From Vicinamibacterales bacterium (GTDB lineage Bacteria > Acidobacteriota > Vicinamibacteria > Vicinamibacterales > SCN-69-37): 64,000 nucleotides of DNA. The stretch is from assembly GCA_030827135.1 (NCBI GenBank), contig JAURFE010000001.1, positions 494,368 to 558,367 of the forward strand, in the 5' to 3' direction. A model generated the notes under the pieces. That model was not told where the DNA came from. It saw only the letters and a program-made list of their open reading frames with translations, and did not search any database. Each line of letters opens with the position of its first letter. The first letter of the stretch is position 1. This document shows, one piece after another, positions 5,652 to 44,400 of the stretch. The position numbers and the translations under genes are program-made.

Positions 5652-5683
5652 GACAGTCTTTCTACTTCAGCACAGACAGACAA

Positions 5684-5857
5684 ATTGGGCAATGAGGCGG
5701 TGGGGCAATGAGGCAATGAGGCAATGGAATTCGGCACTGGCTCAATGGGCCCATGCAATTACCGCAATTCTGGGAATTCCATTGCGCCATTGTGGAATTG
5801 TCGAATTGTGGAATTCCATTGCCCCATTGCCCCATTGCCTCATTGCCTCATTCTCAG
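5684..5857. repeat. Inverted pair of degenerate octamer arrays (word GGCAATGA/G)
   Basis: The left arm, 5684-5730, is a run of 8-bp words of the type GGCAATGA or GGCAATGG ending in GGAATTC. The right arm, 5812-5857, is the reverse complement of such a run starting at GAATTCC. Over the 31 bp closest to the centre the two arms match with about three differences. The centre (5731-5811) is itself rich in AATTC and CAATG words. The array fills the fabG-plsX gap and runs into plsX: the last codons and the TGA stop of plsX (5840-5842) are repeat sequence. It could fold into a long hairpin. I do not recognise a named element. Confidence 0.85.
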
Positions 5858-40493: not shown

Positions 40494-40988
40494 ATGCAAA
40501 TGCTGAGAAAGACTATTGGTGTGGGTCTCCTGTCTCTGGCGGGGCTGGTCGCGGTGCCCGCTACGGCCCATGCCGACATCACGGCCTTCTTCGGAGTGGG
40601 TCAGGGCCCGGAGACGCGCACGGCCAAGGGCCTGTCGTTTGGCGTGAGCCTGATCGTCGTCGGATTCGAGGTCGAGTACTCCGACATCTCAGCGAAAACC
40701 GATGTGGGAGCCGTCGCACCGCGCCTGCGCACCGGGATGGTCAACGCCGTGGTGCAGACCCCGACATCAAGCGTCCAGCTCTACGCGACTGCGGGCGTGG
40801 GCGGCTACCGGGAAAACAGCGTGGGCGACACCGAGACCAGCACCGCCATCAATCTCGGAGGCGGCGTGAAGATGAGCCTGATGGGGCCCCTCAGGCTCCG
40901 CCTGGACTATCGGTTGTTCACGTTGCGCGGCAACCCCGCCGCCAAGACCGTGCACCGGCTGTACGCTGGGGTCAATACCAGTTTCTGA
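40494..40988 (+). CDS. Small outer-membrane beta-barrel-like protein
   Basis: 164 residues. Signal peptide [25 protein letters not shown], then alternating hydrophobic/polar strands ([59 protein letters not shown]) and a C-terminal Phe (AGVNTSF), as in OmpA/OmpW-like 8-strand barrels. The stop TGA merges with the first bases of the following word array. No function is assigned. It is divergent from the acyl-CoA dehydrogenase gene. Confidence 0.75.
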
Positions 40989-41152
40989 ACCCTGGACCTC
41001 TGGACCGTGGTTCATAGTTCATCGGTTCATGGTTCATGGTGCCGTTCATGGTTCGGGGCTCCTGGTTCGAGTAGGGCGCGCTGGGTTTGAGCGCACCGGA
41101 CACGGTTCAGGGTTCCGCACCGATGAACCATGAACCGATGAACCATGAACCC
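40986..41152. repeat. Inverted pair of GGTTCAT word arrays around a 26-bp hairpin
   Basis: The left arm 41009-41042 is built from GGTTCAT(A/G/CG) words; the right arm 41119-41152 is its reverse complement (ATGAACC words). Over about 34 bp they differ by one mismatch and one indel. The loop holds a further GGTTCATGG/GGTTCGGGG region and hairpin copy 2 (41072-41097). The element lies between convergent genes, where it could end both transcripts. Confidence 0.85.
41072..41097. repeat. 26-bp hairpin element, copy 2
   Basis: TAGGGCGCGCT, loop, then TTGAGCGCACC. It equals copy 1 except for the loop and one stem base (AGCGCACC instead of AGCGCGCC). It sits in the loop of the inverted word arrays. 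Confidence 0.8.
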
Positions 41153-41164
41153 GAAGCGAGCGCT

Positions 41165-41671
41165 TTATCTCACCTTCGTCAGCCCCATGCGCTCTATGCG
41201 CAGCACGGCAGCCTTCATCCGTTCGTAGAGCGGCTGCGCTTCGGCGGGCAGAGCTTCAGCCAGCACCAGCAGCGGGTCGTAGCTGGCTTTCGGCACCGCG
41301 GGGTCAAACAGGAACAGGTACGCGACCGAGTCACCCGGCTTCTCCGCCGACTTGTAGATGATCCAGTTGGCCGCCTGGAGTTTGCGCGTGGAGGCGTCGG
41401 CCTTGACCAGCGCCTCCTTCAGCCGCACAAGCACCGCGTCAAAATCCGCGACCTTGGCCGTCGCCACGTGAAAGATCAGGAGTCCCGCTCCAGACGGAAA
41501 CTCATAGGTCACCGGAGGACCGGTCGGGGCGGCGGGCGTCGCAGCAGGGGTCGCCGGTTTTTGCGTGACCGTCGGCACCGGCACCGGTGGGGGGACGGTC
41601 TGGGCAACGGCCTGCCCGGCGGTCACAAGCGCCATCAGTCCAAGGCAGAGGGTCACGGGTCGACGGGCCAT
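41165..41671 (-). CDS. Secreted protein, paralogue A
   Basis: 168 residues: signal peptide (MARRPVTLCLGLMALVTAGQAVAQ), a Pro/Ala/Thr linker (about residues 25-55), then a globular domain ending RIERMGLTKVR. It resembles the neighbour at 41763-42260: both have a hydrophobic strand after the linker (GLLIFHV / VMLMITV), a mid-region LFLFDP / VVFLDPP, and a helical tail. The two thus look like a tandem duplication. No known family. Confidence 0.65.
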   Translation of the reverse strand: MARRPVTLCLGLMALVTAGQAVAQTVPPPVPVPTVTQKPATPAATPAAPTGPPVTYEFPSGAGLLIFHVATAKVADFDAVLVRLKEALVKADASTRKLQAANWIIYKSAEKPGDSVAYLFLFDPAVPKASYDPLLVLAEALPAEAQPLYERMKAAVLRIERMGLTKVR

Positions 41672-41762: not shown

Positions 41763-42260
41763 TTACTTGCGGGCCAGCGGCCAGATGCCCTGGGATTCGA
41801 CCGACGCCTTCAGCTTTTCGAAGACGGCGTCGATCTGCTTGCGGATTTCCACGTCATCCGCTTTCCAGGCCCCTGAGTAGTAGAGCAACTGCGTGAACTC
41901 GTAGCTCTGATTGGCCACGGGCGGATCGAGGAACACCACATATGGCCGAGCCTGACCAGGGGGCAGTTCGGCCGTCAGACGCAGAAGCTGCATCGACTTG
42001 GCCTGTGCCTGAAGCTCGGGCTTGTCGCTGGCGCTGAGGGCGGCGCGAATCGCCCCATAGGCATCCTCAAACACGGCCTCCTGACCACCTTTCACCGTGA
42101 TCATCAGCATGACGGGGCTGGTCCCATCAAACTTGAATGGGTCCGCCGCCGCGGGATCCTGCGCCTGCGCGGTCGCCGCCACCGTGAACAACATTCCGGC
42201 CACGCTCAACGCGACCACCACGCGCCGGCTCACGACCGGCAAGAAACCGAACAACCGCAT
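41763..42260 (-). CDS. Secreted protein, paralogue B
   Basis: 165 residues from ATG 42260, which has a strong GAGGAGG ribosome-binding site. Signal peptide about residues 1-34 (VVVALSVAGMLFTVAATAQAQ), then a 130-residue domain similar to paralogue A. A run of hydrophobic beta (SPVMLMITVKGG) and the PYVVFLDPPVANQSYE segment are recognisable in both. Unknown function; probably periplasmic. A strong terminator follows. Confidence 0.68.
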   Translation of the reverse strand: MRLFGFLPVVSRRVVVALSVAGMLFTVAATAQAQDPAAADPFKFDGTSPVMLMITVKGGQEAVFEDAYGAIRAALSASDKPELQAQAKSMQLLRLTAELPPGQARPYVVFLDPPVANQSYEFTQLLYYSGAWKADDVEIRKQIDAVFEKLKASVESQGIWPLARK

Positions 42261-42346
42261 GCACATCCTCCTCGCCACTGGGGGCGTTGGTCCAAAAAAG
42301 GAAAGCCTACTCTACCGTACTGAACCGGGGTGTGACGAGACTCGAC

Positions 42347-43465
42347 TTAGACGAATACCTGGAAAATTTCGTTCGCCACCAGCATCCCCTCCCGGGTCAG
42401 CCCGAAACGCCCGTTTTTGTGCCACACCTGATGACTCTGCACGAATGGATCCAGGTCCGCGCCATAACGTTCCCAGGGATCTATCCCAAACCGGGCCTGA
42501 AACCGGGCACTCTCAATGCCCTCAGTCAGGCGAAGCCCGGTAAAAAGGGCTTCTTCCACCCGCGCCCGTGTAGACAAGGACTCCACATCGCCGGCCACGG
42601 ACTGCCCGCCTCCAATTCGATCCACGTAGTCGGCGGTCGACGCGAGGTTCTTCCATCGCCGGCCGTTCACGGTCGAATGCGCGCCACACCCGAATCCGAA
42701 CCAGTCACCCGCCTGCCAGTACTTCAAATTGTGGCGGGACTGGTGTCCCGGCCTGGCCGCATTGGAGATCTCGTATTGTTCCAGTCCGGCCGCCCCGAGG
42801 CGGTTCAGTCCCTCGAGATACATGTCCGCCGCATCGTCATCAGGCGCCATCGACCATCCGGCGCGCGCCATGTCTTCCTTCAGCGGCGCGTTCGGATACA
42901 ACTCCAGCAAGTACAGGGACAGGTGGTCCGGCGCGAGGGCGAGGGCGCGGTCGATTGTGCGCAGCCACGACGCCGGCGACTGCGCGGGCAGCCACAACAT
43001 CAGGTCAAACGACACCGACTTGAACCCGGTGCGCATTGCGGCTTCTATCGCCTCGACGGCCCGCGCCGATGAATGGATGCGCCCCAGCCGGCGCAACTCG
43101 TCGTCGTCGAACGACTGCACGCCAAAACTCAGGCGATTGATGCCTGCGTCGCGGAAGGCGGCCAGGCGTGCGGGCGTGGCCGTTTCGGGATTGGTCTCGA
43201 GCGTAATCTCGGCATCAGCCGTCACCTCGAACGTCTCACGACACGCGGCAATCAGGCGCGCAATCTCGGCGGGGTCGAGGAGCGAGGGGGTGCCGCCGCC
43301 GAAGAAGATCGTGTCAGCCCCCCCACCGGGTGCGCGGCGGATCTCCTGCTCCAGCGCAGCGACGTACCGGACCTTCAGCGCGTCATCGAGCAAGCCGCGA
43401 TTGAAGTTGCAGTAGGAACAGATCGCCTGGCAGAAAGGGATGTGCAGGTATAAACCGAGGTTCAT
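42347..43465 (-). CDS. hemW: Radical SAM HemW-like protein
   Basis: 372 residues. The radical-SAM motif CQAICSYCNF (CxxxCxxC) follows GLYLHIPF at the N-terminus; TIFFGGGTPSLL, LETNPET and GVQSFDDDELRRLGR are HemW/HemN-type blocks. HemW is now seen as a heme chaperone and not as a coproporphyrinogen oxidase. The ATG at 43465 lies in the sequence of the GATGAACC word; an in-frame ATG five codons upstream (43480) is in the array too, so the true N-terminus is set by the repeat. Confidence 0.88.
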   Translation of the reverse strand: MNLGLYLHIPFCQAICSYCNFNRGLLDDALKVRYVAALEQEIRRAPGGGADTIFFGGGTPSLLDPAEIARLIAACRETFEVTADAEITLETNPETATPARLAAFRDAGINRLSFGVQSFDDDELRRLGRIHSSARAVEAIEAAMRTGFKSVSFDLMLWLPAQSPASWLRTIDRALALAPDHLSLYLLELYPNAPLKEDMARAGWSMAPDDDAADMYLEGLNRLGAAGLEQYEISNAARPGHQSRHNLKYWQAGDWFGFGCGAHSTVNGRRWKNLASTADYVDRIGGGQSVAGDVESLSTRARVEEALFTGLRLTEGIESARFQARFGIDPWERYGADLDPFVQSHQVWHKNGRFGLTREGMLVANEIFQVFV

Positions 43466-43527
43466 CGGTTCATGGTTCATGGTTCAGTGGTGCTGTTCAG
43501 GGTGCGGGGTTCCGGGTGCGGGGTTCA
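43459..43527. repeat. Word array at the hemW start / DnaC-like stop
   Basis: GGTTCAT(CGG/GG) words (43459-43487) run into TTCAGGGTGCGGGG and TTCCGGGTGCGGGG (14-bp words), ending at TTCA. The minus-strand TGA stop of the DnaC-like gene (43525-43527) and the ATG of hemW both come from the words. It uses the same word as the 41009-41152 arrays but shows only one arm. Confidence 0.78.
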
Positions 43528-44400
43528 GCCGCGCCCGGCTTTGCCGCCTGGCCACTGCAACTCACGCGCTTCGCGCGGGTTCTTCAGGGACCGGAGCGGG
43601 TCGTTGTCCTTGAGCTGGGCGCGGGCCGGGCCACGGGCGCGCGCGGGAAGCACGCGGCGTCCCTTGTTGGTCTGCCACAGGATGGTCAAATCGTTGGGAC
43701 CGCCGTTGGGCGGCAACATCCGGTAGTCGCCACCGTCGTATTCGAGGAACTCGCACATCTCGTGGAGACGCGAGTGCATCCGGTAGCCGACACGCGCCTT
43801 GAGCGAATCCAGGTCCGATTCGTCCGGCGTGTCTTCGTAGTTGGTCGTAAAGATGGTCGGCCGCCGTTCGTTGTAGCGGGTGTTCACGATGAGGTTCATC
43901 GTTTCCTCCACCCACTCCGACGGCTTCTCGGACCCGAGGTCGTCAAGCACCAGCAACTCGGCGTCCATGACCGGCCGGATGATGTCCATCTCGGCCGTCC
44001 GCACCACCGGGTTGTAGGTGGACCGAATGACCTTCAGCAGTTCACGCACGTCGTAAAACAACGCCCGCGCGCCTTTTTCAAGCACCACCTGGCGCAGGAC
44101 GGCCACGGCTATGTGTGTCTTGCCAATGCCGGGAGGCCCGATCAGACACAAGCCCTTGGTCACGGCCGGAAACTGATCCGCAAAACGGCGCGCATACGTG
44201 ACGGCCGACTGAAGCTTTTCGTTCGGGTATATCAGGAAATTCTTCAGATCGCACTTGGCGTAGCGCGGCGGAATTCGCGCATCCCGCAGCAACCGGTCCG
44301 ACGCCTGCACCCGCCAGCATGCACAGCGCTCGACGCGGCGCACACCCTCGGCCGTCGCGGCTTTCCATCCAGTTCCGTTGCAATGCGGGCAGTCAGACAC
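43525..44400 (-). CDS. DnaC/IstB-like ATP-binding protein
   Basis: 291 residues. An N-terminal zinc-ribbon-like CPHCNGTG...CAC motif precedes an AAA+ core: Walker A IGPPGIGKTHIAVA, Walker B LLVLDDLGSEKPSEWV, sensor FTTNYED. This matches replicative helicase loaders (DnaC/DnaI) and IstB. No transposase is near, so helicase loading or primosome work is more likely. The start is GTG 44400. The last residues (PGGKAGRG) precede the array that supplies the stop. Confidence 0.82.
   Translation of the reverse strand: MSDCPHCNGTGWKAATAEGVRRVERCACWRVQASDRLLRDARIPPRYAKCDLKNFLIYPNEKLQSAVTYARRFADQFPAVTKGLCLIGPPGIGKTHIAVAVLRQVVLEKGARALFYDVRELLKVIRSTYNPVVRTAEMDIIRPVMDAELLVLDDLGSEKPSEWVEETMNLIVNTRYNERRPTIFTTNYEDTPDESDLDSLKARVGYRMHSRLHEMCEFLEYDGGDYRMLPPNGGPNDLTILWQTNKGRRVLPARARGPARAQLKDNDPLRSLKNPREARELQWPGGKAGRG

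Follow-up and report, generated by a model that had tools for sequence, protein, structure and literature searches.

What kind of element places two facing arrays of a short word between a pair of convergent genes? The question is raised by a GGTTCAT array in a 64-kb stretch of DNA (the window, meaning that whole stretch). A preliminary description had pointed to a first array in the same window with the same plan and another word, and had proposed a common generating process and not one repeat family. We conclude that the feature probably derives from an IVP element, as a MITE-like copy without the gene; by an IVP element we mean a small, selfish, hairpin-forming element in which an IVP/S23 gene lies between facing arrays of 7- to 8-nt words.

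Facing word arrays at a convergent junction

The locus has the following features (window coordinates).
40494 to 40988, plus strand: left neighbor gene, outer-membrane beta-barrel protein (Pfam, PF13505)
40986 to 41008, minus strand: short GGTCCAG-type words (minus-strand reading) adjoining the array, weakly similar to L119, an IVP element with GGTCCA words
41009 to 41042, plus strand: left arm, array GGTTCAT AGTTCAT C GGTTCAT GGTTCAT GGTGC (the sequence reads GGTTCATAGTTCATCGGTTCATGGTTCAT-GGTGC)
41043 to 41116, no strand: loop of degenerate GGTTC/GGTGC words plus a REP, without an IVP gene
41071 to 41097, plus strand: GTAG-REP (GTAGGGCGCGCTGGGTTTGAGCGCACC) inside the loop, a separate repeat family
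41117 to 41151, minus strand: right arm, the facing array, reverse complement of GGTTCATGGTTCATCGGTTCATGGTTCATCGGTGC
41165 to 41671, minus strand: right neighbor gene, unnamed protein without a Pfam match

The arms are, as first described, about 34 bp long and differ by one mismatch (A/G) and one indel (C), and the genes on either side, for the beta-barrel protein (+) and the unnamed protein (-), are convergent. A repeat search returned ungapped arms of 29 nt with 97% complementarity, 85 nt apart. Exact 14-nt inverted pairs less than 250 bp apart occur in the 64-kb window only at this site and at the first array (5704-5852), and none occurred in five dinucleotide-shuffled windows. The RNA folding energy calculated for the arrays was -87.5 kcal/mol, against -59.7 +/- 4.3 kcal/mol in 300 shuffles (6.5 standard deviations lower). 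By both measures the pairing of the arms is above chance.

The window copy thus carries terminal complementary repeats that form a long hairpin, and it sits between two protein genes, not in 16S or 23S rRNA. No ORF of the S23/IVP family is present in its loop. The loop had been said to contain a copy of the hairpin; what is there is mainly the GTAG-REP, which belongs to a separate family, along with more GGTTC/GGTGC words. The start of the array had been placed at 40986, which includes a short run of a third word (CTGGACC..CTGGACC, 40986-41006). Rfam gave no match above the gathering score in the window, and an Rfam RNA family was rejected on that basis. The protein encoded at 41763-42278 (minus strand) is similar in size and layout to the right neighbor, also lacks a Pfam match, and is a possible tandem paralogue.

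Copies and insertion history of the GGTTCAT arrays

We compared the genome of the window (G000) with six genus-mates (seven genus genomes in all) and searched 60 relatives. The genome-level view was built from pattern searches, individual loci, and a 240-kb sample. In G000, the pattern GGTTCATGGTTCAT had 59 matches at 31 loci. Twelve of these loci are two-stranded, with inward orientation in all 12, and about 10 have one arm only. A near-identical end, GGTTCATGGTTCATCGGTTCATGGTTCA[T/G].GGTGCnGTTC, is common to many of them, and near-identical ends of 45 to 60 bp recur at dozens of loci. Among the 60 relatives, the family was found only in the genus-mate G004 (69 matches); the five other genus-mates had 0 to 1 match each, and one more distant genome had a single match. 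For about 20 sampled array loci, G000 and G004 hold orthologous copies (flanks 81 to 89% identical), so most GGTTCAT insertions predate the split of the two. GGTTCAT is therefore a repeat family, with 31 loci and some 20 sampled ones common to G004, and the earlier denial of a single family does not hold for it.

The gene pair flanking the window array is kept in all seven genus genomes. The stop-to-stop gap is 183 bp in G000 and 88 bp in G004 (with a REPIN inside) and 3, 11, 17, 17, and 33 bp in the five other genus-mates. Judged from these distances, the window array is an insertion between a conserved gene pair. At another site, G004 has 9 bp (ATGAACCCG), a single-word scar, where G000 carries a 175-bp array. 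Upstream of a gene read as apt (L032), GGTTCAT arrays are present in both G000 and G004; the orthologous site carries a GGTCCGCA..TGCGGACC pair in G001 and a GGTCCAGA..TCTGGACC pair in G005. Position and plan are the same across species at this site, with different words. No clear target-site duplication was seen at L010, L018, or L032, with flanks too diverged at most sites, and no insertion event was observed among the compared genomes. The expectation that the arms of a locus co-vary was borne out only at the scale of whole words: between G000 and G004, the two arms of a locus were no more alike than the same arm across species.

REPINs in G004 lie exactly at two junctions where G000 has GGTTCAT arrays (L049, 4340-4430; L212, G004:C28:15474-15556). 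Different elements, a REPIN in one species and a GGTTCAT array in the other, thus use the same junctions. At two further loci (L009, 2806-3422, and L077), GGTTCAT arrays enclose a gene for a GntR-type regulator, not an IVP, in both species.

Gene-bearing copies and the IVP protein

The GGTTCAT arrays of one G000 locus (L025, C11:1370.8k) and of its G004 orthologue (L072) enclose a gene of family PF05635 (23S_rRNA_IVP/S23; E = 1.8e-21). The window element resembles the L025 IVP element at its left end (93% over 45 nt) and at its right end (97% over 35 nt), and a gene-less locus in G000 (L026) is orthologous to an IVP copy in G004 (L073). Because both ends match and L026 and L073 are the same locus, the window feature is best read as an IVP element minus its gene. 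As expected of a MITE-like copy, its ends are homologous to those of a gene-bearing parent in the same genome. We speak of a gene-less derivative and not of an intervening sequence (IVS), since the ORF is absent here and present in L025 and L072.

The AlphaFold model of the IVP (pLDDT 95.9) falls in a four-helix bundle family. It matches the S23/IVP homopentamer XCC0516 (2GSC; TM 0.82 to 0.89) and also S23-family BT_0352 (2RLD). We know of no catalytic residue in IVPs. The dN/dS ratio was about 0.06 between L112 and L113 and about 0.05 between L124 and L125, values that indicate purifying selection on the protein.

A fold class shared with Avd of diversity-generating retroelements, on a weak Foldseek match (4DWL/8UB7), suggested a reverse transcriptase acting in trans. 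RVT_1 was not found in the seven genus genomes (MAGs, in which absence is not proof); this sets the elements apart from the Avd systems, and an Avd-like partner reverse transcriptase in the genus is disfavored for that reason.

One gene family, many words

Nearly all of the 21 clearer IVP matches in the genus lie between facing word arrays, and the words differ (GGTTCAT, GGTCCA, GGTGCTG, GGATTG, GGCAATG, AATCGG, CGAAATG, and others). In the phylum, taken to be Acidobacteriota (Vicinamibacterales), PF05635 was present in 78 of 149 sampled genomes. From fragmented assemblies we took 84 non-redundant IVP loci, which are the best-scoring matches and not a random sample. The longest exact inverted match between their flanks had a median of 15.5 nt and reached at least 11 nt in 82% of the loci, compared with 6% for flanks of mismatched loci, 14% at positions drawn at random from the genomes, and 23% when the flanks were compared in direct orientation. 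The sum of 9-mers shared between flanks was not reached in any of 10,000 permutations. Array periods were 7 (47 loci), 8 (16 loci), and 9 (6 loci), with a median of 3.9 words per arm, and the G-rich arm was the 5' arm in 56 of 65 loci (P = 2e-9). Two genomes (G158 and G181) each hold many IVP elements, every one with its own word.

Beyond the phylum, inverted arrays were present at 12 of 13 IVPs, from cyanobacterial, Gemmatimonadota (Gemmatirosa), and Azospirillum replicons and a viral contig, compared with 5% of mismatched flanks. The Azospirillum copy lies within the LSU (23S) rRNA and has an 8-mer array as its stem; it is therefore a classical intervening sequence. The claim that one plan recurs with different words is borne out by facing 7- to 8-mer arrays on either side of IVP genes, both across the phylum sample and in other phyla, with arms that match within a locus and words that differ between loci even in a single genome. 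These comparisons support the idea of one plan with many words at large scale. Each element lineage has its own word.

The loci also have site preferences. Only 4 of 65 lie at divergent junctions, and of 42 IVPs in tandem gene pairs, 32 are co-oriented with the transcript (P = 0.0009). IVPs on cyanobacterial plasmids (L232, L235, and L237) occupy the nrdB/nrdA interval in Nostoc edaphicum and the cas6/cas4 interval in Anabaena sp. 90 and Pseudanabaena.

Words go with resident IVP elements

Every word array noted in the window matches an IVP element resident in the genome.
5683 to 5852: first array (GGCAATGA words), matching the arms of L130 (C61:59402) at 98 to 100% over 41 to 43 nt
41009 to 41151 and 43459 to 43528: GGTTCAT arrays, matching L112
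7671 to 7701, 51839 to 51897, and 63066 to 63093: arrays of GGTCCAG type with one arm each, which match the arms of L119, the IVP element with the word GGTCCA

The denial of a repeat family fails here as well: the GGTTCAT ends are homologous to an IVP-bearing element, and the GGCAATGA array likewise matches one. The half array at 43459-43528 overlaps the start of a hemN/hemW-like gene (42347-43480), the first codons of which (MNHEPMN) are built from GGTTCAT words.

Genomes with an IVP of a given word usually carry many gene-less copies with that word, in counts that are not phylogenetically independent, given that, of the genomes compared, G000 and G004 are most closely related to each other. 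The two genomes that hold a GGTTCAT IVP gave 59 and 69 GGTTCAT matches, the five others 0 to 1. The counts for GGATTGAG were 117 and 59 in two genomes with the cognate IVP versus 0 to 24 in the others, and those for GGCAATGA were 73 and 51 in two genomes with a GGCAATG IVP versus 1 to 24. GGTGCTG matched 123 times in G003, which has a GGTGCTG IVP, and was commonest in G005 (200 matches), where a GGTGCTG IVP was not found; the matching element was possibly lost there or left unassembled.

Word sharing between loci was seen in 33% of the pairs with IVPs more than 60% identical and in at most about 2% of other pairs. As words are shared mainly above this identity, the word likely turns over faster than the protein. 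The overall Mantel correlation between word and protein was weak (rho = 0.04; P = 0.10). With word similarity tracking the IVP only above about 60% identity and a weak Mantel correlation, we only infer that the IVP recognizes the word.

Relation to known repeats

The intervening sequences of 23S rRNA that carry an S23p/IVP ORF (Coxiella and Leptospira; PF05635) share the protein family with the elements described here, and their terminal complementary repeats form a hairpin. In Coxiella, the stem is reported to contain tandem GACAGAT heptamers with a strain-variable copy number, and rRNA intervening sequences are excised by RNase III (PMC4990558). The rRNA copy of Azospirillum follows the word-array plan. 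In contrast to the rRNA intervening sequences, copies here lie nearly all outside rRNA, their stems are element-specific word arrays, and gene-less copies, such as that of the window, multiply through the genome. MITEs are similar in that copies lacking the gene keep the inverted ends of a gene-bearing parent and outnumber it; they differ in that the ends here are tandem word arrays and that neither a transposase nor a clear target duplication was found. REP/REPIN elements with RAYT are likewise dispersed extragenic palindromes, and a REP sits in the window loop, but the arms here have no GTAG foot and no link to RAYT.

Paired, inward-facing heptamer arrays have been described in intergenic spacers of Xanthomonas (GGGAATC) and Nostoc [GGGGA(C/T)T] (Rehm et al. 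2015; PMC4692102). They too have a 7-nt period, mostly four units per array, and inward pairing and are scarce between divergent genes, but they have another word and were interpreted as G-quadruplex repeats (PMC4692102). The inward-facing pairs are thus already described, and the link to an IVP gene is absent there. We found no published link between IVPs and word arrays in the open-access literature. The TAACTGA repeats of Beggiatoaceae (PMC4679880) were set aside as a parallel, being mostly direct and without a tie to S23, and PMC5524665 proved to be a false lead.

Alternative explanations

A process of the host could also be at work, in which replication slippage and fold-back template switching at quasi-palindromes make word hairpins wherever a heptamer arises, with IVP genes as passengers or tolerated guests. 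Words that vary by locus and species, arms that match within a locus, and the single-word scar in G004 opposite a 175-bp array in G000 would all be accounted for. We nevertheless consider this explanation unlikely: it leaves unexplained why the arrays are tied to a single gene family in several phyla, why the IVP gene is strongly constrained, and why near-identical 45- to 60-bp ends occur at dozens of loci, and the word arrays of the window that lie away from IVPs largely match the ends of resident IVP elements. Selection for a bidirectional terminator or an mRNA-stability hairpin between convergent genes would suit the junction and the very stable fold. It is very unlikely, as five genus-mates lack the array, gene-bearing copies also lie between co-directional genes, and a T-run and a terminator-like site are lacking on both strands; an intrinsic terminator was rejected for this stem without a T-run.

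Mobilization of a REP/REPIN family by a resident RAYT transposase is suggested by the GTAG-REP in the loop, by the RAYT-type genes (PF01797) in the genome, and by the REPIN at the window junction in G004. The GTAG-REP family (window 41071-41097 and 50552) has 159 copies in G000, 117 in G004, and none in the five other genus-mates, and a RAYT-type gene is located about 230 bp from one of these copies (G000:C51:143181-143762). This family is separate and nested in the array, however, and the arms are built as tandem arrays without GTAG; the arrays of L010 and L032 are free of any GTAG-REP. RAYT as the cause of the arms is refuted by the lack of GTAG and fits only the inner 27 nt (41071-41097), which makes this account of the locus slightly less probable again than a terminator. 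Least probable is that the arrays are regulatory G-quadruplex heptamers of the kind proposed for GGGNATC in Xanthomonas and Nostoc. Heptamers with the G-rich strand inward, convergent pairs, and about four units (PMC4692102) are all in line with it, but most words lack GGG tracts (GGTTCAT, AGTCAGC, and TTAGCTT), many of the 84 phylum loci have words unable to form quadruplexes, and the IVP gene is left unexplained. Membership of the window array in the GGGNATC class was rejected because GGTTCAT does not provide four GGG tracts.

A proposed mechanism and its meaning

Some ring-shaped proteins bind words at regular spacing; TRAP does so on RNA. If the feature derives from an IVP element, the IVP ring (pentameric in the solved homologue) may bind its own word array, in the form of either DNA or RNA, perhaps with each subunit taking one word. 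Two inward arrays would then give a single long hairpin held by the IVP protein. The protein would act on any copy with its word, allowing gene-less copies to spread in trans. Elements would persist where an extra hairpin is harmless, such as spacers after stop codons, convergent junctions, and rRNA loops, and by analogy with known intervening sequences the hairpin in rRNA loops would be cut out by RNase III. We propose that the observed site preferences arise because inserted hairpins are tolerated at such places. Slippage and fold-back copying may maintain the similarity of the arms while allowing the word to drift.

Structures of S23/IVP proteins have been available since 2006, to our knowledge without an assigned function, and the origin of rRNA intervening sequences has lacked agreement since about 1990. 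A locus-specific word array tied to the IVP gene offers a testable substrate for the protein. It also suggests a mobile element without a recognized recombinase, in which the recognition word evolves faster than the protein. In a broader reading, to which we give even weight for and against, IVP/S23 genes would form a widespread class of mobile elements in several phyla, with lineage-specific inward word arrays read by a ring-shaped IVP; rRNA intervening sequences would be one niche, and many unexplained intergenic heptamer repeats (in Xanthomonas, cyanobacteria, and Acidobacteriota) would be gene-less offspring. A single cause is thereby offered for several separately described classes of short intergenic repeats, and IVP elements with words of their own could account for many of the puzzling short repeats in bacterial genomes.
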